A stretch of 11,341 nt of DNA from Anaerolineaceae bacterium. GTDB lineage: Bacteria; Chloroflexota; Anaerolineae; JAAYZQ01. Both the position numbers and the translations under genes were made by a program. Below are positions 769 to 8,560 of this stretch, piece after piece (position 1 is the stretch's first letter; the number at the start of each line of letters is the position of its first letter). Under the pieces are notes generated by a model. The model was not told where the DNA came from and did not search any database. It was given only the letters and a program-made list of their open reading frames with translations. The stretch lies in assembly GCA_012514775.1 (NCBI GenBank), contig JAAYZQ010000171.1, forward strand, positions 1 to 11,341, written 5' to 3'.

Positions 769-1863
769 ATGAGGCCTCTCGCGCGAACAGTTTTCAGCGC
801 ACTTGTGCTCGTAGTGCTGTTCCTGCTTGGCGCCACAGCGGCCCTGGCCCAGGAAACCGGCAACGAAGGCTGCCTTGCCTGCCACGGAGAACCGGGACTG
901 CAGACCACCTTGCCCTCGGGCGAGCCGCTGTACCTCACGGTGGATGGCGAGGTATACGCCAATTCCGTCCACGGCCAGGCCGGCATGATCTGCGCTCACT
1001 GTCACACCAACACCGTCGAATATCCCCACGCGCCCATCGAGGCGCAGACACGCCGCGAGTACGCCATGGACCGCTACCGCTCGTCTTGTGTGCTGTGCCA
1101 CGCCCCGATGTACGACGCGACCCTGGACAGCGTCCACCAGGTGGCCCTGGCCGGGGGCGATTCCCAGGCGGCCATCTGCACCGACTGCCACGGCACGCAC
1201 AACATCATGCCGCCCGACACGCCGCGGAGCCGGGCTTCGCAGATGTGCGAGCGGTGCCATTCCCAGATTTTCGAGTTGTACAAGGGGAGCGTGCACGGCG
1301 CCGCCCTCATCGGGCAGGGCAATCCCGACGTGCCGGGCTGCGTCGACTGCCACGAGGTCCATCGCGTCCAGGGCCCCGAAGGGACGGGCTCCTTTCACCT
1401 CTTCTCGCCGCAGATCTGTGCCAACTGCCACGCCGACGAAGAGATGATGGCGCGCTACGACATCAGCACCGACGTGTTTGACACCTACGTGGACGACTTT
1501 CACGGCACGACGGTGGTTCTCTTCCAGGCCACGGCGCCCGATCAGGAGACCAACAAGCCGGTGTGCGTCGACTGCCACGGCGTGCACGACATGAAGCAGG
1601 TCGACGACCCGGAGAGCGCCGTGATGAAGGAGAACCTGCTGACCACCTGCCAGAAGTGCCATCCCGACGCCTCGGCCAACTTTCCCACGTCGTGGATCAG
1701 CCACTACCGGCCCACGCCCGAGAACGCGCCGCTGGTCTTTTTCGTCGGGCTGTTCTACAAGATCTTTATCCCGGTGCTCATCGTGGGCATGGTGTTGTTT
1801 GTGGCCAGCGATGCACGGAAACGACTCGTGGAGCGCAGGGGGAAGGAGCAGGCCAATGGCTGA
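769..1863 (+). CDS. Nine-haem c-type cytochrome, membrane-anchored, CbcL N-domain-like
   Basis: A 364-residue exported cytochrome likely passing electrons between a membrane cytochrome b and acceptors outside the membrane. Residues 1-27 form a Sec signal peptide ending in ALA. Nine CXXCH motifs start at C35, C75, C107, C137, C160, C191, C217, C266 and C294. Many extra His residues (for example SVHG, GSVHG, DFHG) could serve as distal ligands for bis-His haems. A C-terminal transmembrane segment at about 321-346 is followed by a basic KRLVERR tail, so the haem domain faces outward. The next gene, a cytochrome b, overlaps it by 8 bp, so the two are probably made together. Nine c haems plus a neighbouring FdnI-like cytochrome b is the composition of Geobacter CbcL, but there the parts are fused. 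Assignment as a cytochrome is certain. The CbcL comparison is from memory of the family, and the physiological partner is inferred. Confidence 0.9.
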   Translation: MRPLARTVFSALVLVVLFLLGATAALAQETGNEGCLACHGEPGLQTTLPSGEPLYLTVDGEVYANSVHGQAGMICAHCHTNTVEYPHAPIEAQTRREYAMDRYRSSCVLCHAPMYDATLDSVHQVALAGGDSQAAICTDCHGTHNIMPPDTPRSRASQMCERCHSQIFELYKGSVHGAALIGQGNPDVPGCVDCHEVHRVQGPEGTGSFHLFSPQICANCHADEEMMARYDISTDVFDTYVDDFHGTTVVLFQATAPDQETNKPVCVDCHGVHDMKQVDDPESAVMKENLLTTCQKCHPDASANFPTSWISHYRPTPENAPLVFFVGLFYKIFIPVLIVGMVLFVASDARKRLVERRGKEQANG

Positions 1864-3037
1864 ACAGGCGCGCTACCGGCGATTTTCCGTCCTCTATCGC
1901 ATCGAGCACTGGGTGCTGACCATCAGCTTCAGCCTGCTGGCCGTCACCGGCCTGGTGCAGATCTATTTTGCCACCGACCTGGCCCAGGCCATCGTCGGCG
2001 GGCTGGGCGGCATCGAGCTCGTGCGGCTCTTGCACCGCATCGCGGCCGTGGTGCTGATGTTGGAGGCGATTCTGCACCTGGGCCACGTGGGGTACCGCGT
2101 CTTTGTGCTGCGGACGCCCATGAGCATGCTGCCCGGCGTCCAGGACCTGCGCAACGCGCTCCAGGCCGTGGCGTACAACCTGGGCCTGCGCAAGGAGCGG
2201 CCGCAGCAGGGCTTTTACACCTTTGAGGAAAAGCTCGAGTATTGGGCCGTCGTGTGGGGCACCATTGTCATGGGCATCACCGGCTTTATCCTGTGGAACC
2301 CCATCGCCAGCACCAGGATCCTGCCCGGCGTCGTGGTCCCCGCGGCCGTGGTGGCCCACGGCCTGGAGGCCACTCTGGCCGTGCTGGCCATCATCGTCTG
2401 GCACGTCTACCACGTGCACCTGCGCCATTTCAACAAGAGCATCTTTACCGGGTATCTCACCGAGGAAGAGATGCAGGACGAGCACCCTGCGGCGCTGGCC
2501 CGCATCAAGGCCGGGCGGACGCCGCGCCGCTCTCCGCCCGAGGTCGAGGCCGGGCGGCGGCGGGTCTTTGTCCCGGCCTTTGCCGTGGCGGCCGCCGTGA
2601 TGCTCGTCGGAGTCTATTTCTTTGTGGCCTACGAAGAGACGGCCATCGCCACCCTGCCGCCGGCCGAAGAGATCGTCGTCTTTGCGCCCCTGACGCCCAC
2701 ACCGTTCCCGACCGTGCCGCCCGTGCTGCCGACGAGCACGCCCGGCGCGGGCCAACCCCCCGAGGCGGACGTGACCTGGGAGAGGGGCATCGGGCGCCTG
2801 GTGGACCAGAAGTGCGTCGACTGTCACGGCGGAAGCGAGACGCTGGGCGACCTGGACCTGCGCACCTACGAGGCGGCCCTGGCCGGCGGTGTGAGCGGCC
2901 CGGCCATCGTGCGCGGCGAGGGGCACACCAGCCTGCTCATCACCCGGCAATCGAGCGGCGACCATCCGGGGCAGTTTTCTCCCGAAGAGCTGGAGCTGGT
3001 GCTGCACTGGATCGAGCTCGGCGCGCCCGAGGAGTAA
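1856..3037 (+). CDS. Cytochrome b (FdnI/HydC-like) fused to a C-terminal c-type haem domain
   Basis: A 393-residue membrane protein expected to exchange electrons with the quinone pool. Four transmembrane segments at about 17-37, 60-82, 128-150 and 161-187 carry His in a pattern like FdnI-type di-haem cytochromes b: H18 in the first, H60 and H74/H77 around the second, H168 and H183/H186/H188 in the fourth. A fifth segment (236-258) leads to a Pro/Thr-rich linker (about 278-302) and an outward-facing domain with one haem motif, C320-VDC-H324. Its following GG..DL.TYEAALAGG..GPAI pattern resembles planctomycete-type (PSCyt) cytochrome c domains. The start is placed at 1856, inside the end of the nine-haem gene, because GGAAGGAG (1841-1848) precedes it by 7 nt. 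A GTG at 1799 would add 19 residues without such a site. The outward c haem is suited to pass electrons to the nine-haem partner. Confidence 0.88.
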   Translation: MAEQARYRRFSVLYRIEHWVLTISFSLLAVTGLVQIYFATDLAQAIVGGLGGIELVRLLHRIAAVVLMLEAILHLGHVGYRVFVLRTPMSMLPGVQDLRNALQAVAYNLGLRKERPQQGFYTFEEKLEYWAVVWGTIVMGITGFILWNPIASTRILPGVVVPAAVVAHGLEATLAVLAIIVWHVYHVHLRHFNKSIFTGYLTEEEMQDEHPAALARIKAGRTPRRSPPEVEAGRRRVFVPAFAVAAAVMLVGVYFFVAYEETAIATLPPAEEIVVFAPLTPTPFPTVPPVLPTSTPGAGQPPEADVTWERGIGRLVDQKCVDCHGGSETLGDLDLRTYEAALAGGVSGPAIVRGEGHTSLLITRQSSGDHPGQFSPEELELVLHWIELGAPEE

Positions 3038-3134
3038 CCTCCGATGTCCTGGTCGGCCATAGCGGCCGCGACGACGAACCAGAAGCCAGGGCAGGCACGG
3101 GACGTCGGGGCCGCCGATTTCCGCCGGCCTGCGG

Positions 3135-3163
3135 TTGACGAACCAGGCGACAGCGGCTATAAT
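3135..3163 (+). promoter_or_regulatory. Near-consensus sigma70 promoter for the 19-haem cytochrome
   Basis: TTGACG (3135-3140) and TATAAT (3158-3163) at exactly 17 bp spacing, 11 of 12 consensus positions. It has the same two hexamers and spacing as the minus-strand promoter at 570-598. The predicted start is near 3170. It lies between the second and third cytochrome genes, so the third can be expressed separately. Confidence 0.85.
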
Positions 3164-3169
3164 CAGCGT

Positions 3170-3229
3170 GTGCGCCCTGGCGATGCGGCCCCCCGTGGAC
3201 AGCGATCGTCCACAGCCGGGGAAGCGCAC
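3170..3229 (+). promoter_or_regulatory. Structured 5' leader hairpin of the 19-haem cytochrome mRNA
   Basis: Starting at the predicted first transcribed base, GTGCGC (3170-3175) can pair with GCGCAC (3224-3229). Inside, CCCC (3191-3194) can pair with GGGG (3218-3221), and a perfect GTGGAC/GTCCAC stem (3195-3200 with 3208-3213) closes a 7-nt loop. No T-run follows, so it is not an intrinsic terminator. It may stabilise the 5' end or be a regulatory structure. It does not match a riboswitch class that I recognise. Confidence 0.45.
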
Positions 3230-3291
3230 GAGAGGCTCGCCACACCAACGTCTACGTCGTTGCAGAGCAAAGAAATCAGGAGGAGGTCTAC

Positions 3292-5343
3292 GTGACTGAG
3301 GACAAGGAGACGAACACCAGGAGAATCCCTACTCGCCAGATCCTGTTCATCGGCTTTTCCTTCGTCGTCGGGTTCATCATCTTGGGCGTCATCGCCATCC
3401 AGGTGTGGGAGTACTCGAACAGCGTGCCCTTCTGCGCCAACTTTTGTCACGACGTACACCCCGAAGAGATCGCAGCCTTTGAGGACTCGTACCACGGCAG
3501 CATCAAGTGCGTCGAGTGCCACATGGGCCGGGTGGGAACGCTGCAGAACATTATCCTGAAGGCGAGCCATTTCCGGCACCTGCCCGAGGTGATCTTTGAC
3601 CAGTATGAGCGGCCCCTGGAGTCGGAGACCATGCGCCCGGCCAACGAGTCGTGCGAGCTGTGCCATTACCCGCCGGCGTTTCACGGCGACACCGTGCGCG
3701 AGCTCGTGGGCTACCGGACGGACGAGGAGAATACGCTGGAGCGGGTGTACCTGATCCTCAGGACAGCGGGGGGCGTCCGCACCCTCGGGCTGGGCCTGGG
3801 CATCCACTGGCACATCGCCAACCCTGTGGAGTACGTGAGCGCCGATGAGCGCAGCGGCTCGATCCCGTGGATCCGCACGACGCTGCCCGATGGCCGCACA
3901 GTGGAATACGTGGATATCACCAACCCCCTGGGCGAGGAAGAGCTGGCCGCCAGCGAGGTGCAGTTGATGGATTGCGTAGACTGCCACAACCGGGTGGGGC
4001 ACCCCTTCTCGTCGCCCGAGCAACTGATCGACGACGCCCTGGCGACGGGGGAGCTGAGCAACAACCTTCCCGCGATAAAGCGGTACATGGATGACCTCCT
4101 GACGGCCAACTACGCGGACCGGGAACAGGCCTACCAGTCGGTGGAACAGATCCAGGTGCAATACGAGGCCGAATACCCGCAGGTGGCCCAGGAACGGCGC
4201 CCCGAGATCGAGCAGGCCATGGAGCTGGCCCGGGGCTTGATCGACAGGCTGGTCTTTGACGTGCCGGGCGTGACGTGGCAGGACTTTCCGAACCAGTCGG
4301 GGCACAAGGACTTTGCCGGTTGTTTTCGCTGCCACGACGGGAAGCACCTGAGCGAGGACGGCAGCTCTATCCGGCTACACTGCAACATCTGTCACAGCAT
4401 CCCCATCACGGCCCTCGCCGGCGAGCGCCCGCCCGACATGCCGGTGCGGACGGTTCCCGAGCCGGCCTCGCACCTGGAGACCAACTTTATGGCCGACCAC
4501 CGCTTCCAGGCGACGGAAGAGGCGTGCAGCGAGTGCCACGGCGAGATCGAGTTTGGCGCCGACGACTCGAGCTTTTGCGCCAACTCGTCGTGCCACGGGC
4601 AAAGCTGGCCCGAGGTCGAGCTGGACGCCGCATTCCCGCACCCCGTCCCCCTGGAGGGCCAGCACGCCGAGGTGTGGTGCCACGACTGCCACGAGGGAGT
4701 TCGCCAACCCGAGTTCGAGTGCTCCAACTGCCACGAGGCGCCGCAGCCCCACTTTGGCGAGAACTGCGAAGGCTGCCACACGCCGATGGGTTGGGACCAG
4801 GCCGAACTGGGCGCCTTTGTGCACCCCATCGCGCTGGAAGGCGCCCACGCCGAGATCTCGTGCACGGCGTGCCACGCCGAGCAGGTGGTGGGGCTGCAGT
4901 ATACCTGCGGCAACTGCCACGAGGCACCCGTGCCCCACTTTGGGCCGAGCTGCGAGGACTGCCACGTGCCGACGACCTTCAGCGACGCCACGCTGCCCCC
5001 GGAGCTGCACCCCGTGCCGCTGGAGGGCGCCCACCTGCAGGTGTCGTGCGAATCGTGCCACCAGGACGACGAGGCCGACCTGGAGTTCGTGTGCTCCAAC
5101 TGCCACGAGGCGCCGCCGAACCACGTGCCGGGTGGCTGCAACGTCTGCCACACGCCCGAGGGTTTCGTCGAGTCGGCCGCCTTCCTGGTCCGGCTGTCTC
5201 CCCAGGTGCCGCACAACGTGGATGGACGCGAGGCCTTTTGCCTGGACTGCCACGACCCGGCGGGCAACATCGAGCCGGCGCCCCGCAACCACGTGAACTA
5301 TATCGTGGAGCAGTGCCTGCTGTGCCACAAACCGGCCCAGTAG
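3292..5343 (+). CDS. NapC/NirT-headed multihaem cytochrome (up to 19 haems), ImcH-like core plus triheme repeats
   Basis: A 683-residue cytochrome predicted to take electrons from menaquinol and pass them outward. The GTG start follows AGGAGGAGG (3278-3286). One N-terminal transmembrane anchor spans about 16-39. Haem motifs start at C48, C73, C121, C228, C344, C364, C412, C429, C463, C477, C492, C524, C539, C554, C586, C601, C616, C650 and C675. Seventeen are CXXCH, C48 is CX3CH (CANFCH) and C429 is CX4CH (CANSSCH). Residues 40-80 follow the NapC/NirT/NrfH pattern. Residues 225-370 (MDCVDCHNR, then a helical stretch, then GCFRCHDGKH and CNICH) resemble the ImcH-type quinol oxidase of Geobacter. 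Residues 449-634 are three tandem triheme units of about 62 residues. No signal cleavage site is seen, so the anchor stays. It has its own promoter and is followed by a terminator. NrfH has four haems and ImcH about seven, so this is a strongly extended form. Confidence 0.9.
   Translation: MTEDKETNTRRIPTRQILFIGFSFVVGFIILGVIAIQVWEYSNSVPFCANFCHDVHPEEIAAFEDSYHGSIKCVECHMGRVGTLQNIILKASHFRHLPEVIFDQYERPLESETMRPANESCELCHYPPAFHGDTVRELVGYRTDEENTLERVYLILRTAGGVRTLGLGLGIHWHIANPVEYVSADERSGSIPWIRTTLPDGRTVEYVDITNPLGEEELAASEVQLMDCVDCHNRVGHPFSSPEQLIDDALATGELSNNLPAIKRYMDDLLTANYADREQAYQSVEQIQVQYEAEYPQVAQERRPEIEQAMELARGLIDRLVFDVPGVTWQDFPNQSGHKDFAGCFRCHDGKHLSEDGSSIRLHCNICHSIPITALAGERPPDMPVRTVPEPASHLETNFMADHRFQATEEACSECHGEIEFGADDSSFCANSSCHGQSWPEVELDAAFPHPVPLEGQHAEVWCHDCHEGVRQPEFECSNCHEAPQPHFGENCEGCHTPMGWDQAELGAFVHPIALEGAHAEISCTACHAEQVVGLQYTCGNCHEAPVPHFGPSCEDCHVPTTFSDATLPPELHPVPLEGAHLQVSCESCHQDDEADLEFVCSNCHEAPPNHVPGGCNVCHTPEGFVESAAFLVRLSPQVPHNVDGREAFCLDCHDPAGNIEPAPRNHVNYIVEQCLLCHKPAQ
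4636..5193 (+). repeat. Three in-gene tandem repeats encoding triheme c7-like units
   Basis: Units cover residues 449-509, 510-571 and 572-634 of the cytochrome. Each reads HP(V/I)xLEGxH, CXXCH, then (F/Y)xCxNCHEAPxxH, then CxxCH. Haem spacing is almost exactly periodic: C477, C539 and C601 are 62 residues apart each time, as are C492, C554 and C616. Each unit supplies three proximal and three further conserved His (for example H511, H519, H549 in unit 2), enough for three bis-His haems. A 25-bp identical DNA stretch (4719-4743 and 5091-5115, exactly 372 bp apart) shows the repeat at nucleotide level. Degenerate half-units flank it (around C412 and C650). Confidence 0.85.
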
Positions 5344-5365
5344 CCGGCGAGGAGTAGAGGTTGAG

Positions 5366-5394
5366 GCCCGGCTGCAAAAGCAGCCGGGCTTCTT
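5366..5394 (+). terminator. Intrinsic terminator after the cytochrome locus
   Basis: A perfect 10-bp G/C-rich stem (5366-5375 with 5380-5389), an AAAA loop and a trailing TTCTT, 22 bp past the stop codon of the 19-haem cytochrome. It separates the electron-transfer genes from the Nudix gene. Confidence 0.85.
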
Positions 5395-5404
5395 GATGGA
5401 CGGG

Positions 5405-5419
5405 CAGGCTGGCAGCCTG
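5405..5419. repeat. Small palindrome between terminator and Nudix gene
   Basis: CAGGCT-GGC-AGCCTG is a perfect 6-bp stem with a 3-nt loop, and G-T and G-C pairs could extend it outward by two. It has no T-run. It could be a further short palindromic repeat, unlike the ones at 37-218, or chance in G/C-rich DNA. Confidence 0.3.
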
Positions 5420-5448
5420 TCTGGCCGGGAATCGCCCACGGGGAAGAA

Positions 5449-6066
5449 GTGATAGACAAGGTCACATGCTTTGTGCTGCGCCCCACCGCGGCGGGGCCAG
5501 AGCTGCTTCTGTTCAAGCATCCCTATGCCGGGGTCCAGATCCCGGCGGGGACCGTGGAGCCGGGAGAGACTCCGGGGGCGGCCGCCAGGCGTGAGGTGGC
5601 CGAGGAGACGGGCCTGCAGATGCCGGAAGCGGGTCGCCCCCTGGCCGTCGCCGAAGACCGGCTGCCGGAGGGCACCTTTGCTGTGGCTAATGCGACCAGG
5701 GTCTATGCCCGGCCCGACACCAGCAGCTTTGACCGGGTCAGCCTGCCGCGGGGTGCCATCGTTGCCCTCCAGCGGGAGGCGGGTGCGTTTCGCCAGGTGC
5801 TCTGGGAGGAGTGGGATCGCTGGCCCGATCCGCAGTACCGGTCGATGGCGATCCTGGGCTGGGTGCCGGCGAGCACCCTCACCGACCGGCAAAGGCGACA
5901 CTTCTATCTCTTCGAGTTTCGGGGCGAGACGCCGGAACGGTGGGCCGTCGAGGCCGACAATCACCGCTTCGCGGTCTTCTGGGCGCCGCTGGCGGCCCTG
6001 CCGTCCATTATCCCACCCCAGGACGCCTGGCTGGCTTTTCTGCCGGGGGCTCCCCATTTGCCTTAG
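5449..6066 (+). CDS. Nudix hydrolase
   Basis: A 205-residue protein of the Nudix superfamily, which cleaves nucleoside diphosphates linked to another group, using Mg2+. The complete Nudix box lies at residues 34-56: G34, E40, then R48-E49-V-A-E52-E53-x-G55-L56, matching GX5EX7REUXEEXGU with all metal-binding Glu present. The substrate cannot be told; the C-terminal part (about 100-205), rich in Trp and acidic/basic residues, matches no subfamily I recognise. The GTG start is used because no ATG precedes the box in this frame. The only purine-rich stretch (GGGGAAGAA, 5440-5448) abuts the start, so initiation may be weak or the start may be wrong by a few codons. No clear promoter is seen between the upstream terminator and this gene. 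It may depend on read-through. Confidence 0.85.
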   Translation: MIDKVTCFVLRPTAAGPELLLFKHPYAGVQIPAGTVEPGETPGAAARREVAEETGLQMPEAGRPLAVAEDRLPEGTFAVANATRVYARPDTSSFDRVSLPRGAIVALQREAGAFRQVLWEEWDRWPDPQYRSMAILGWVPASTLTDRQRRHFYLFEFRGETPERWAVEADNHRFAVFWAPLAALPSIIPPQDAWLAFLPGAPHLP

Positions 6067-6086
6067 TCTGGAATTTTGATTATACT
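6058..6086 (+). promoter_or_regulatory. Sigma70-type promoter for bacterioferritin
   Basis: TTGCCT (6058-6063) and TATACT (6081-6086) at 17-bp spacing. The -35 box overlaps the last codons of the Nudix gene. The predicted start is near 6093, giving a leader of about 58 nt. I see no convincing Fur box over it. Confidence 0.65.
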
Positions 6087-6150
6087 AGGGAACAGAACCA
6101 AGCGGGCCTTAGCTGGCCGGCACAATCACGTCCCGTAAACAGGAGGAATC

Positions 6151-6621
6151 ATGAAAGGGAACGATCAAGTCCTTGCCAAGCTGAACGAGCTGCTGGCGGA
6201 AGAGCTCACGGCCATCAACCAGTACATGGTGCATTCGGAGATGGGTGACGACTGGGGTTACGAGCGCCTTCACAAGAAGGTGGAAGCGCGCGCCATCGAG
6301 GAGATGCGGCACGCCGAAAAGCTCATCGGCCGCATCCTCTTTTTCGAAGGGCGGCCCATCGTCAGCAAGCTGCACGCCATCCACATCGGCGAGAACGTCG
6401 AAGCGCAACTGCGCAACGACCGGCAGGCCGAGTTCGATGCCATTGCCATGTACAACGAAGCCATCGCGCTGGCCAGGGAAGTGGGCGACAACGGCACCCG
6501 CGACCTGCTGGAAGAGATCCTGGAGGACGAAGAGGAGCACGTCGACTGGATCGAGGCGCAGCTCGACCAGATCGAGCAGATCGGCATTCAGAACTATCTG
6601 GTGATGCAGATCGAGGACTAG
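6151..6621 (+). CDS. bfr: Bacterioferritin
   Basis: A 156-residue bacterioferritin: a 24-subunit cytoplasmic shell that oxidises Fe(II) at a di-iron site and stores it as ferric mineral. All ferroxidase ligands are present at the positions known for E. coli Bfr: E18, E51, H54, E94, E127 and H130. M52, the axial ligand of the inter-subunit haem, is also kept (EEMRH), so it should bind haem b. Y25 of the family is present too. Length is typical. AGGAGG (6141-6146) lies 4 nt before the ATG. It has its own promoter and terminator, hence a single-gene unit. Its nearness to a locus coding for roughly thirty haems fits a high iron demand, but the sequence shows no shared control. Confidence 0.97.
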   Translation: MKGNDQVLAKLNELLAEELTAINQYMVHSEMGDDWGYERLHKKVEARAIEEMRHAEKLIGRILFFEGRPIVSKLHAIHIGENVEAQLRNDRQAEFDAIAMYNEAIALAREVGDNGTRDLLEEILEDEEEHVDWIEAQLDQIEQIGIQNYLVMQIED

Positions 6622-6655
6622 GCCTGGCCTCAGGCTGCTGGCAGAGACATAGGCG

Positions 6656-6698
6656 CGGGCCGGGCATTCGTCGCACAGGTTGCCCGGCCCGTTTTCTT
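6656..6698 (+). terminator. Intrinsic terminator after bfr
   Basis: A perfect 11-bp G/C-rich stem (6656-6666 with 6681-6691), a 14-nt loop and TTTTCTTT, 34 bp after the bfr stop. Confidence 0.88.
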
Positions 6699-6795
6699 TA
6701 CGATCCTACCTCTGGGGCCAGGGCGCACCCCCAGGACACAGCGGTTGGCGCAGGCCGGGCGCCCTGCTTCCGATCAAGGCTCAAGGAGAGGTCGC

Positions 6796-7284
6796 GTGAC
6801 AGAGAAGGCTTTCCAGGACTATTACCCCGACGAGGCGGCGGTGTGCTATGGCTGCGGGCGGCTCAACGAGCACGGCTACCAGATCAAGAGCTATTGGGAT
6901 GGCGACGAGGCGGTGGCGACCTTTTACCCCAGGCCGTACCACACGGCCGTCGCCGGCTACGTGTACGGTGGGCTCATCGCCTCGGTCATCGATTGCCACA
7001 GCACGGGCACCGCGGCGGCGGCCATGTATCGCGCGCAGGGACGCGAGATGGACACCGATCCGCCGCTCCGTTTCCTGACGGGCTCGCTGCACGTGGACTA
7101 TTTGCGGCCGACGCCCATAGAAGGCCCCCTGGAGCTGCGGGCGCAGGTCAAGGAGGTCAAGGGGCGCAAGGTGGTGGTGCACACCACGCTCTCGGTGGGC
7201 GGCGAGGTGTGCGCCCGCGGCGAGGTGGTGGCCGTGCAGGTGCCCGACCGCCTATGGGCCCAGATCACCGGGACCGGCCAGTAG
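6796..7284 (+). CDS. PaaI-like hotdog-fold thioesterase
   Basis: A 162-residue protein of the PaaI/hotdog thioesterase group, which hydrolyses acyl-CoA thioesters; the acyl group here is unknown. It opens with C17-YGC20-GRLNEHG, the short Cys/Gly motif common at the start of this subgroup (CFGCGxxNPxG). It continues with the helix signature YGGLIASVID (G58, G59, D66), where a Tyr replaces the usual His of HGG, and then LHVDYLRPTP, a typical hotdog strand. The GTG start at 6796 is chosen for AAGGAGAG (6783-6790), 5 nt upstream. An extension to 6745 would add 17 residues that look non-coding. No clear promoter was found in the 100 bp after the bfr terminator. It converges on the YprB-like gene with 25 bp between the stops. 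Confidence 0.82.
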   Translation: MTEKAFQDYYPDEAAVCYGCGRLNEHGYQIKSYWDGDEAVATFYPRPYHTAVAGYVYGGLIASVIDCHSTGTAAAAMYRAQGREMDTDPPLRFLTGSLHVDYLRPTPIEGPLELRAQVKEVKGRKVVVHTTLSVGGEVCARGEVVAVQVPDRLWAQITGTGQ

Positions 7285-7293
7285 CCTGCCAGC

Positions 7294-7320
7294 ACGGCTG
7301 AAGCCGTTACTACGAACCCA
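7294..7320 (+). repeat. Dispersed palindromic repeat, variant B, at the convergent gene end
   Basis: Identical over 27 bp to 192-218: palindrome ACGGCT-GA-AGCCGT followed by TACTACGAACCCA. It begins 10 bp after the stop of the thioesterase gene and runs into the end of the minus-strand exonuclease gene. The exonuclease stop codon (complement of 7310-7312) and its last residues lie inside the repeat. Insertion at a gene's 3' end is typical for REP-like elements. Confidence 0.85.
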
Positions 7321-8560
7321 GCGCTAGTCGCTGGCGCAAGCGGTTGAGGCGGTGCTCCAGGTCGGCCAGGGCCTCGCGGCGCCGCGGTCCCGGCGGCCAG
7401 CCCTGGACGAGGGCTAGCGCTTCCTCGGTCCAGGCCAGGGCCTGGGCGATATCCCGGGCGTGCCACTCGTAGTGCTTGGCCAGCTCCTCGAAAGCATAGA
7501 TGGCGCCTTCTTCGCGGGCCAGGCGCTGCCACCAGGGCAGGGCCTCGTCGCGGCGCTCCTGGCGCTTGAGCTGGTAGGCCAGGTCGCGCATGGCCAGCTC
7601 GCGCACCGAGCGCAGGCGGCAGCCCTCCACCGCCCGGGCGAGGGCCACCTGGCCGCGATCGCCCTGCCCCAGATCGCAGAGCAGGCGGCCCAATCCGTAG
7701 AGGTCTTCGCCGGGGATGTCGCCGTCCTGGCTCGATGCCAGGGGATGGGTTAGCAACGAGGAGAGCCGGGCAGCCAGGACGACCAGGGAGAGGATGTCCT
7801 GGGCGTTGTGGTAAAAGATGCGCGGCATCTCTCTGGCGTCGCGGCTCCGCACATAGTCCCCATACAGCCCGGGGATGAGCCAACCGGGCACGTCCTCCTG
7901 GGCGCGCTGCACGCCGAGGACCGCTTCTTCCAGGTTGGAGAGGGCGCACGACTCCAGGCGGTGCTTCCAGATGCGCCGGGAGACGGGCAGCAGGTCGAGG
8001 TGGGGCGCGCCGCTGAGACGGGGCGCCTGGCGCGTCATGGTGAAGCGGGTCTCCAGGAGGGGCATGTCAAAGCTCTTGCCGTTAAAGCTGACCACGGCGC
8101 CCAGGCGATCCAGGACGCCGGCCAGGGCATGGAGCTGGGCGGGCTCTTCGTCGTAATCCCGCATGAAGTACTGGTGGATGGTGAACCCGTCGCCCTCGAA
8201 CAGGCCAACGCCCACCAGGAAGGCATAGGTGCCGGTGCCGCCGGCCAGGCCCGTGGTCTCGGTGTCGACAAAGGCCCAACGGGTGGGGTCCAGGGCGGCC
8301 AGGCGCTCGTCGCGGGCCAGGAGCGCGGCCACGTCGGCGGGGTGTTCCAGCAGGGCCGACAGGGACAGGCCGCCGTGGCGGTAGTCGAGGGGATAGTGCT
8401 CGCGGTGCAGGAAGCAAGCCCCCTGTTCGGTGGCCAGGATCTCGCCCGGCAGCAGCTCCTCGATGGGCCGCGGCTTGCGGCGCGGCGGCGGGGTCACCCT
8501 CTCGGCGCCGCGCGTCACGCCCAGGCGTCTCAGGCGCTCGCGGAGGTCGCTGTGCTCCAT
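7310..8560 (-). CDS. yprB: YprB/MrfB-like DEDDh 3'-5' exonuclease with C-terminal helical repeats
   Basis: A 416-residue member of the RNase H-like YprB family. In Bacillus subtilis the family member (also named MrfB) works with the helicase YprA/MrfA in a UvrABC-independent repair of mitomycin C damage. The exonuclease core shows FVD99-T-E101-TTG, then VSFNGKSFD165-PLLETRF, then H251-NAQD255-ILSLV, i.e. all DEDDh catalytic residues. Residues 286-385 form helical, TPR-like repeats (YGLGRLLCDLGQ, ALARAVEG, ALAWTEEALAL), as is common in this family. The start follows the CPBP stop by 15 bp, with a weak GAGG about 7 nt upstream, so translation is probably coupled. No MrfA-like helicase lies in the window. 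The last residues (ALGS) and the stop codon come from the dispersed repeat. Confidence 0.85.
   Translation of the reverse strand: MEHSDLRERLRRLGVTRGAERVTPPPRRKPRPIEELLPGEILATEQGACFLHREHYPLDYRHGGLSLSALLEHPADVAALLARDERLAALDPTRWAFVDTETTGLAGGTGTYAFLVGVGLFEGDGFTIHQYFMRDYDEEPAQLHALAGVLDRLGAVVSFNGKSFDMPLLETRFTMTRQAPRLSGAPHLDLLPVSRRIWKHRLESCALSNLEEAVLGVQRAQEDVPGWLIPGLYGDYVRSRDAREMPRIFYHNAQDILSLVVLAARLSSLLTHPLASSQDGDIPGEDLYGLGRLLCDLGQGDRGQVALARAVEGCRLRSVRELAMRDLAYQLKRQERRDEALPWWQRLAREEGAIYAFEELAKHYEWHARDIAQALAWTEEALALVQGWPPGPRRREALADLEHRLNRLRQRLALGS

Follow-up and report, generated by a model that had tools for sequence, protein, structure and literature searches.

The window analysed here is a stretch of 11,341 nucleotides from an Anaerolineaceae bacterium of the Chloroflexota (contig JAAYZQ010000171.1, assembly GCA_012514775.1), and it carries, at positions 3292-5343 of the forward strand, the gene of a large multihaem c-type cytochrome. 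The gene is a single open reading frame (ORF) of 683 codons with a GTG start, the position of which matches the start of the homologue P0003 in the alignment. By scanning with the pattern C(X2-4)CH, 19 haem sites were found in the 683-residue protein, namely 17 CX2CH, one CX3CH (residue 48) and one CX4CH (residue 429). Six of these motifs form the core (48, 73, 121, 228, 344 and 364) and 13 the tail, in which two linking motifs (412 and 429) are followed by three trihaem units (463/477/492, 524/539/554 and 586/601/616) and a C-terminal pair (650 and 675). The features of the gene are as follows.

3292..5343, forward strand: complete gene of the membrane-anchored cytochrome, 683 residues and 19 haem sites (ORF, translation, motif scan, homologues)
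3340..3414, forward strand: single N-terminal transmembrane helix, residues ~17-41 (a lone hydropathy peak from residue 17; model helix at 14-42; NrfH superposition)
3433..3450, forward strand: haem 1, atypical CX3CH, residues 48-53, adjoining the membrane helix (motif scan)
3457..3459, forward strand: His56, third residue behind the haem-1 histidine, a possible changed distal ligand (comparison with three-helix proteins; the ligand role is putative)
3559..3561, forward strand: Lys90, aligned with Lys82 of NrfH (phmmer alignment to NrfH chain 2j7a_C)
3433..4395, forward strand: ImcH-like core, haems 1-6, residues 48-368 (identity to three-helix proteins; tree)
4525..4596, forward strand: haems 7 and 8, CX2CH at 412 and CX4CH at 429 (motif scan; invariant in 96 homologues)
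4627..4812, forward strand: trihaem unit 1, residues 446-507 (lag match, DNA repeat, unit identity, Pfam Cytochrome_C7)
4813..4998, forward strand: trihaem unit 2, residues 508-569 (lag match, DNA repeat, unit identity)
4999..5184, forward strand: trihaem unit 3, residues 570-631 (lag match, DNA repeat, unit identity)
5239..5328, forward strand: C-terminal haem pair, residues 650-679 (motif scan; invariant in 96 homologues)

The 62-residue repeat of the tail is real, as the best ungapped self-match peaks at a lag of 62 (31 of 62 residues), in comparison with 15 at lag 61 and at most 10 at the other lags from 50 to 74. Motif spacings across the three units read 14-15-32-15-15-32-15-15, and a 67-base DNA segment is repeated at exact 186- and 186-base spacing. 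A preliminary description of the window had spoken of three nearly exact units; their length and register agree with this wording, whereas their sequences do not, with pairwise identities of 40-52% (0.52, 0.45 and 0.40). The extra half-units mentioned in the same description are found as haems 7-8 before the repeats and as the C-terminal pair, and its figure of up to 19 haems holds if the atypical CX3CH and CX4CH, both kept in the family, are counted, while otherwise the count is 17. The proposed fusion to c7/c3-like trihaem units was supported by the Pfam profile Cytochrome_C7 (PF14522), with 69.9 bits against a cut-off of 24.8 and four stretches in the protein. The profile Cytochrom_c3_2 was also passed (43.7 bits, cut-off 25), and Paired_CXXCH_1 remained below its threshold (17 vs 20.6). 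Tandem c7-type trihaem domains, by which membership of the GSU1996-type c7 polymers is partly defined, are present in the 683-residue protein.

Outside the motifs the protein has 25 histidines, 13 of which lie in the tail, one per tail haem (H394, 403, 450, 458, 487, 511, 519, 549, 573, 581, 611, 641 and 667). All 13, as well as all tail motifs, are invariant in 96 aligned proteins of the close family, namely all those with 19 motifs in the set of the query and its 120 listed homologues. If each extra histidine is a ligand, all 13 tail haems would be expected to be bis-histidine. This conservation is confined to the close family: in a wider set of 76 sequences, many with shorter tails, the place of H450 is taken by histidine in 43 of 67 proteins and that of H458 in 26 of 66. 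A chance CxxCH-rich frame was ruled out by the motifs, ligand histidines and spacing kept in the 96 homologues. Recent duplication of the three units within the window gene was likewise rejected, since units at the same position are more alike between proteins (mean identity with 95 other 19-motif proteins of 0.68 for unit 1 and of 0.57 each for units 2 and 3) than units at different positions (average of 0.43 over 570 comparisons).

The protein search scored 7996 candidates and returned at least 1753 matches at E<=1e-3, the best 120 of which form, together with the query, a window set of 121 proteins. These 120 homologues are 52-97% identical to the query and align over 79-100% of its length; one of them, P0012, which is named Anaerolineae, is 68% identical. 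Motif counts in the 121 are 16 (2 proteins), 19 (96), 20 (2), 21 (1), 22 (16), 25 (3) and 28 (1), by which 118 of the 121 fit a ladder of 10+3n with n from 2 to 6; CX4CH is present in all 121 and CX3CH in 118. The exceptions are P0108 and P0116 (20 motifs), which are without the first core motifs and are probably cut gene ends, and P0120 (21 motifs), with a rearranged tail. Neighbouring units of longer members can be near-alike (0.89 for units 2-3 of P0009, 0.83 for units 3-5 of P0024), a sign that modules were recently duplicated inside these genes. The ladder holds within the close family but not throughout the superfamily, because the counts of distant members differ and the common 9- and 14-motif groups lie off it; distant members from the locus searches carry 6 to 17 motifs, some of them cut by contig ends. 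The fusion, described at first from a single gene, recurs and is more general than supposed. Among the listed homologues none is assigned to a different reaction, the only informative names being 'NapC/NirT family cytochrome c' and 'cytochrome c3 family protein', which state no reaction.

The variation in unit number among close relatives could also be explained by electron storage. In this alternative the trihaem tail would be a capacitor for times without acceptor, as described for GSU1996 (PMC10138318; this and the other papers cited here are drawn on in excerpt), and the haem number would set capacity instead of reach. However, GSU1996 is periplasmic and has no anchor, whereas the 683-residue protein has a membrane anchor and, at its C-terminus, a conserved pair of haems unlike the units, as expected of an exit. 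A capacitive tail is held to be distinctly unlikely.

At the other end of the chain, the NapC/NirT-type N-terminus recognised in the preliminary description is supported by NrfH, the only credible solved-structure relative of this region, on which residues 19-109 superpose. The position of Lys90 is occupied by lysine in 73 of 75 core sequences and by arginine in the other two. Identity with NrfH itself was rejected, as the protein has 19 motifs and reaches 28.7 bits with the NrfH equivalog profile, whose cut-off is 134.2. The core that follows contains the motifs HWH (172-174), MDCVDCHN, GCFRCHDGKH and CNICH. By BLASTP, the query was compared with 11 chosen proteins of the ImcH layout, with three transmembrane (3-TM) helices, from Deltaproteobacteria, NC10, Rokubacteria, Terriglobales (two), Binatia, Methylomirabilota, Verrucomicrobiae and Chloroflexota (three). 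Identities were 33-39% over 343-437 residues (E 8e-59 to 2e-94), with alignments that start at query residues 9-33 and end at 370-441. All 11 have three hydrophobic helices and the CX3CH motif, and eight have exactly CX3CH plus six CX2CH; among 55 further proteins from the 3-TM-query search, this motif content occurs in 43 and three helices in 54. In the window set, hydropathy gave one transmembrane helix in 118 of 121 proteins, the query included, and none in three. A FastTree phylogeny of 76 chosen core sequences, midpoint-rooted and read without branch support values, places most 3-TM proteins outside the clade of the window protein and most of the relatives bearing the gene trio presented below. 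Homology and tree both agree with the earlier naming of an ImcH-like middle.

A difference between the two groups lies next to haem 1. The residue three places after the haem-1 histidine is methionine in 175 of 175 proteins listed with the 3-TM queries and histidine in 118 of the 121 of the window set; in the remaining three it is proline. CX3CH is missing in three of the 121, and there the count begins at another motif. In NrfH, a methionine near that place ligates haem 1. These sequences suggest the idea of a ligand switch at the quinol-side haem 1, from methionine to His56.

With regard to distribution, 24 loci (L001-L024) were obtained from a species-representative genome set. L001-L019 and L021 have Chloroflexota titles (Aquidulcis, Thermoflexales and Ardenticatenales being placed in this phylum), except L007, which has a Spirochaetes label; L020 belongs to Limisphaerales, and L022-L024 to other groups with weak matches (E 3e-5 to 3e-4). 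Among 400 genomes sampled from the phylum of the L002 genome, 33 had a relative at E<=1e-30, and 19 motifs were seen, among the relatives examined, only in that of L002 itself; 396 genomes from the class of the L001 genome gave six matches at E<=1e-140. Among metagenome proteins the 19-motif type is frequent, but among the species genomes examined it is rare. Geobacter-named matches were found neither in the species-representative scan nor in three homologue searches (best 120 each, few rows with an organism name), and the plasmid search gave one partial match, in Selenomonas. Two single relatives may be mentioned. Positions 5021-6784 of L007 encode a 13-motif relative in a metagenome-assembled genome labelled Spirochaetes, either by transfer or in a misbinned contig. 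L094, a 577-residue frame on the reverse strand (3412-5142), has 17 motifs without CX3CH and CX4CH, is well separated in the tree from the clade of the window protein and is possibly an independent tail expansion.

The features present in these sequences, namely the anchor, the motifs, the repeats, one invariant histidine per tail haem in the close family, the quinol-site lysine and the recurrence of the trio, lead to a reading that we regard as somewhat more probable than its opposite: the 683-residue protein would be a membrane-anchored menaquinol oxidase of ImcH type, with an outlet lengthened by trihaem c7/c3-like modules, for extracytoplasmic or extracellular reduction. In doing so, it would probably pass the electrons of respiration away from the membrane. 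Quinol would be oxidised beside haem 1 at the membrane surface, in an NrfH-like pocket with Lys90, and electrons would travel via core haems 2-6 and haems 7-8 into n trihaem units in series (n=3 in the window protein). At the C-terminal haem pair they would be handed over to a partner outside the cytoplasm, and the most likely one is a multihaem cytochrome, located at the surface or a lipoprotein, with a role in extracellular electron transfer (EET). Tandem insertion of trihaem modules would be the origin of the lengthened outlet. As for how fully the haem sites are loaded, which way electrons flow, whether the wire is continuous and which partner and final acceptor take part, the model extrapolates from the sequence features, and the case for an extracellular end is circumstantial, being built on a lipoprotein-like neighbour in relatives and on the electrode exchange of Ardenticatena maritima.

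Two further cytochrome genes, which were not part of the preliminary observation, directly precede the 683-residue cytochrome in the window.

769..1863, forward strand: nine-haem c-type cytochrome, 364 residues, hydrophobic leader at the N-terminus and hydrophobic anchor at the C-terminus (nine CX2CH; hydropathy peaks at 8 and 328; recurrent partner)
1856..3037, forward strand: FdnI/HydC-like cytochrome b with C-terminal monohaem c domain (PF01292 and PF07635 above cut-off, TIGR01583 below; recurrent partner)

The ORF of the cytochrome b opens at 1799, and an in-frame ATG at 1856 would overlap the preceding gene by 8 bases. Together the two genes look like a split CbcL, and this b/c module may be a second entry to the same electron route. 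Its recurrence was surveyed in 56 non-redundant relatives from L001-L024, L055 and L063-L100, with the window excluded and matches above 100 bits accepted. CX4CH is present in 37 of the 56, and 30 of these have at least 2.6 kb upstream; both partner genes stand close upstream on the same strand in 17 of the 30, completing a trio with the multihaem cytochrome. Among relatives without CX4CH that have enough upstream sequence, the pair occurs in 1 of 15 (L072, itself cut by a contig end). Other arrangements were also seen: in L008 both genes lie 3.7-4.9 kb upstream and were counted as without the pair, in L006 the pair is on the other strand, and in the long-tailed L021 it is divergent.

A candidate for the exit partner was found beside relatives. 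L002, whose 19-motif protein is 61% identical to the query, encodes at 5581-7785 a 734-residue protein carrying ten CX2CH motifs behind a lipobox-like LASC start, ~150 bases upstream of the 19-motif gene, as well as histidine-kinase- and response-regulator-like genes (labelled by the look of their sequences). L001 carries part of a homologue of this ten-motif protein at its contig end (5011-5499; 159 bits), with a similar kinase/regulator pair. The lipoprotein-like cytochrome is a possible exit partner in these two relatives.

Elsewhere in the window, a ferritin-like protein (PF00210) is encoded at 6151-6621, two genes downstream of the cytochrome, for which a link to iron is possible. A 35-base repeat occurs outside the main genes in three copies (138-172, 192-226 and 7294-7328), 80-91% identical to the reference copy.

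Several observations weigh against the proposed menaquinol oxidase with a lengthened outlet. To our knowledge, biochemistry is known for no member of the family. The NapC/NirT profile PF03264 stays below its cut-off in the window protein (21.9 vs 24.1 bits); in five of six related genomes searched it is passed by the homologue of the query, and in the sixth, that of L002, by another protein. Two structure predictions were weak, with mean predicted local distance difference test (pLDDT) values of 50.1 and 61.1, and therefore haem spacing is not readable from them. The b/c pair is missing directly upstream in 13 of the 30 CX4CH relatives, and none was found in the 10-18 kb examined around the higher-scoring, long-tailed L002, L005, L007, L106, L107 and L108. 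The trio is thus mainly a feature of the shorter-tailed relatives, the window being the only long-tailed locus seen with a same-strand pair. The lipoprotein-like cytochrome gene is confined to L001 and L002 among 11 related loci scanned, and neither such a gene nor another acceptor for the C-terminus was found in the window. Beside the 14-motif relative of L017, positions 2550-7480 encode a molybdopterin oxidoreductase, an FeS protein, NrfD and a 14-CX2CH cytochrome, and an NrfD-like protein (by look only) lies near the related gene of L004; an acceptor outside EET is therefore possible. Finally, in the EET-capable Chloroflexota isolate Ardenticatena maritima no protein exceeds seven motifs (PMC5808234), so that EET proceeds there without a protein of the 19-haem type.

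Part of this evidence invites other explanations. The trio of 17 relatives and the window could represent a relay, in which the FdnI-like cytochrome b oxidises quinol and passes electrons through the nine-haem protein to the 683-residue cytochrome, whose own quinol site would be vestigial; the replacement of methionine by histidine after haem 1 is in line with this. Nevertheless, Lys90 and the NrfH-like N-terminus are retained, and the relay is weakened because the six long-tailed relatives named above have no b/c genes in the flanks examined, so little credence is given to it. The genes around the L017 relative suggest instead a donor to a soluble or membrane-side reductase of nitrite, sulfur or molybdoenzyme type, with no extracellular acceptor. 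This was judged unlikely, as no such gene is present among the nine window ORFs profiled and the close relatives L001 and L002 have the lipoprotein-like cytochrome instead. Flow could also be reversed, electrons from outside (Fe(II), an electrode or a partner cell) reducing menaquinone. A. maritima also draws electrons from a cathode (PMC5808234), and homologues of CymA and of CbcL/MtrH/MtoC occur in Fe(II) oxidisers as well (PMC6295460); all the same, this direction is considered very unlikely for the window protein.

For the menaquinol oxidase with a lengthened outlet, the distance to be covered can be estimated. Gram-positive peptidoglycan measures 20-80 nm, and 4-16 molecules of the hexahaem CwcA would be required to span it (PMC7911101). 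This corresponds to ~5 nm per six haems, or ~0.8 nm per haem, and gives ~11 nm for the 13 tail haems; for the 28-haem member, the tail would reach ~18 nm and the whole protein ~23 nm. Because of its ~11 nm by this rule, the 19-haem chain alone would not span such a wall. The earlier suggestion that one chain carries electrons across the wall without a separate carrier accordingly lacks support; in addition, a separate lipoprotein-like cytochrome is found in L002 and, in part, in L001. A bolder version, which we put forward as a doubtful possibility, is a quinol oxidase with modular reach: trihaem cassettes would be gained and lost between a fixed head and the terminal pair (10+3n), so that one anchored chain in a monoderm leads electrons from the quinone pool across the envelope, wholly or in part, and n would be adapted to how thick the envelope is or to where the partner lies.

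Outward respiratory electron transfer in bacteria without an outer membrane is poorly known. The family represents a natural length series on one conserved head, with ~9-10 haem sites at the short end, among distant relatives, and 28 at the long end. Reach, rate and storage could accordingly be tested against the number of modules. In addition, an ImcH-like and a CbcL-like module occur as neighbours in a gene cluster found repeatedly in Chloroflexota.

Among known systems, NrfH and the NapC/NirT proteins share with the window protein the single helix, the first haems and the quinol-site lysine. NrfH has four haems and feeds NrfA, in contrast to the 19 motifs found here. The resemblance to ImcH includes the anchor, the adjoining CX3CH and the six-haem core with MDCxDCHN and GCFRCHD, followed by CxxCH. 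Published ImcH homologues have three N-terminal transmembrane helices, except for a single one in Anaerolinea thermophila and Intrasporangium calvum. CX3CH adjoins their membrane domain, the number of CX2CH ranges from 5 to 9 and is thus not fixed at the about seven haems given in the preliminary description, and identities between the Geobacter group and the others are 31.5-49% (PMC6295460). The window protein differs in having one helix instead of three, 19 motifs against 6-10, 17 CX2CH and hence a number outside the 5-9 range (PMC6295460), trihaem units before the terminal pair, and histidine instead of methionine after haem 1. It would thus be a variant related to ImcH and not ImcH, a kinship indicated by layout and by homology to ImcH-layout proteins, not to Geobacter ImcH itself.

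The tail shares the linear c7-type trihaem repeats of GSU1996 and other c7 polymers, for which edge-to-edge steps of 3-5 angstrom between haems along the chain are a further hallmark. GSU1996, however, has no quinol domain and one His-Met haem per domain (PMC10138318), whereas the window protein has its invariant extra histidine for each tail haem. CbcL unites nine c haems and a six-helix dihaem b in one chain (PMC9129911, PMC6295460), and Geobacter ImcH and CbcL serve acceptors of different potential (PMC6295460). Judged by these published descriptions only, the window pair at 769-1863 and 1856-3037 has the same content of nine c haems and an FdnI-like b, but it is split over two genes, and its b subunit bears an additional monohaem c domain. 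The ImdcA-PdcA-CwcA system of Thermincola likewise leads from a quinol-side cytochrome to the cell wall of a monoderm, although its steps are carried out by separate proteins (PMC7911101). No description of the head-tail fusion was found in literature titles or abstract openings. A cytochrome of a Gram-positive bacterium, listed with 20 motifs as a putative quinol oxidiser (PMC7829351), is possibly a precedent of another type. Large multihaem cytochromes of Anaerolineales vary in motif number, for which gain and loss in multiples has been suggested (PMC7399161), and they could include the family of the window protein.

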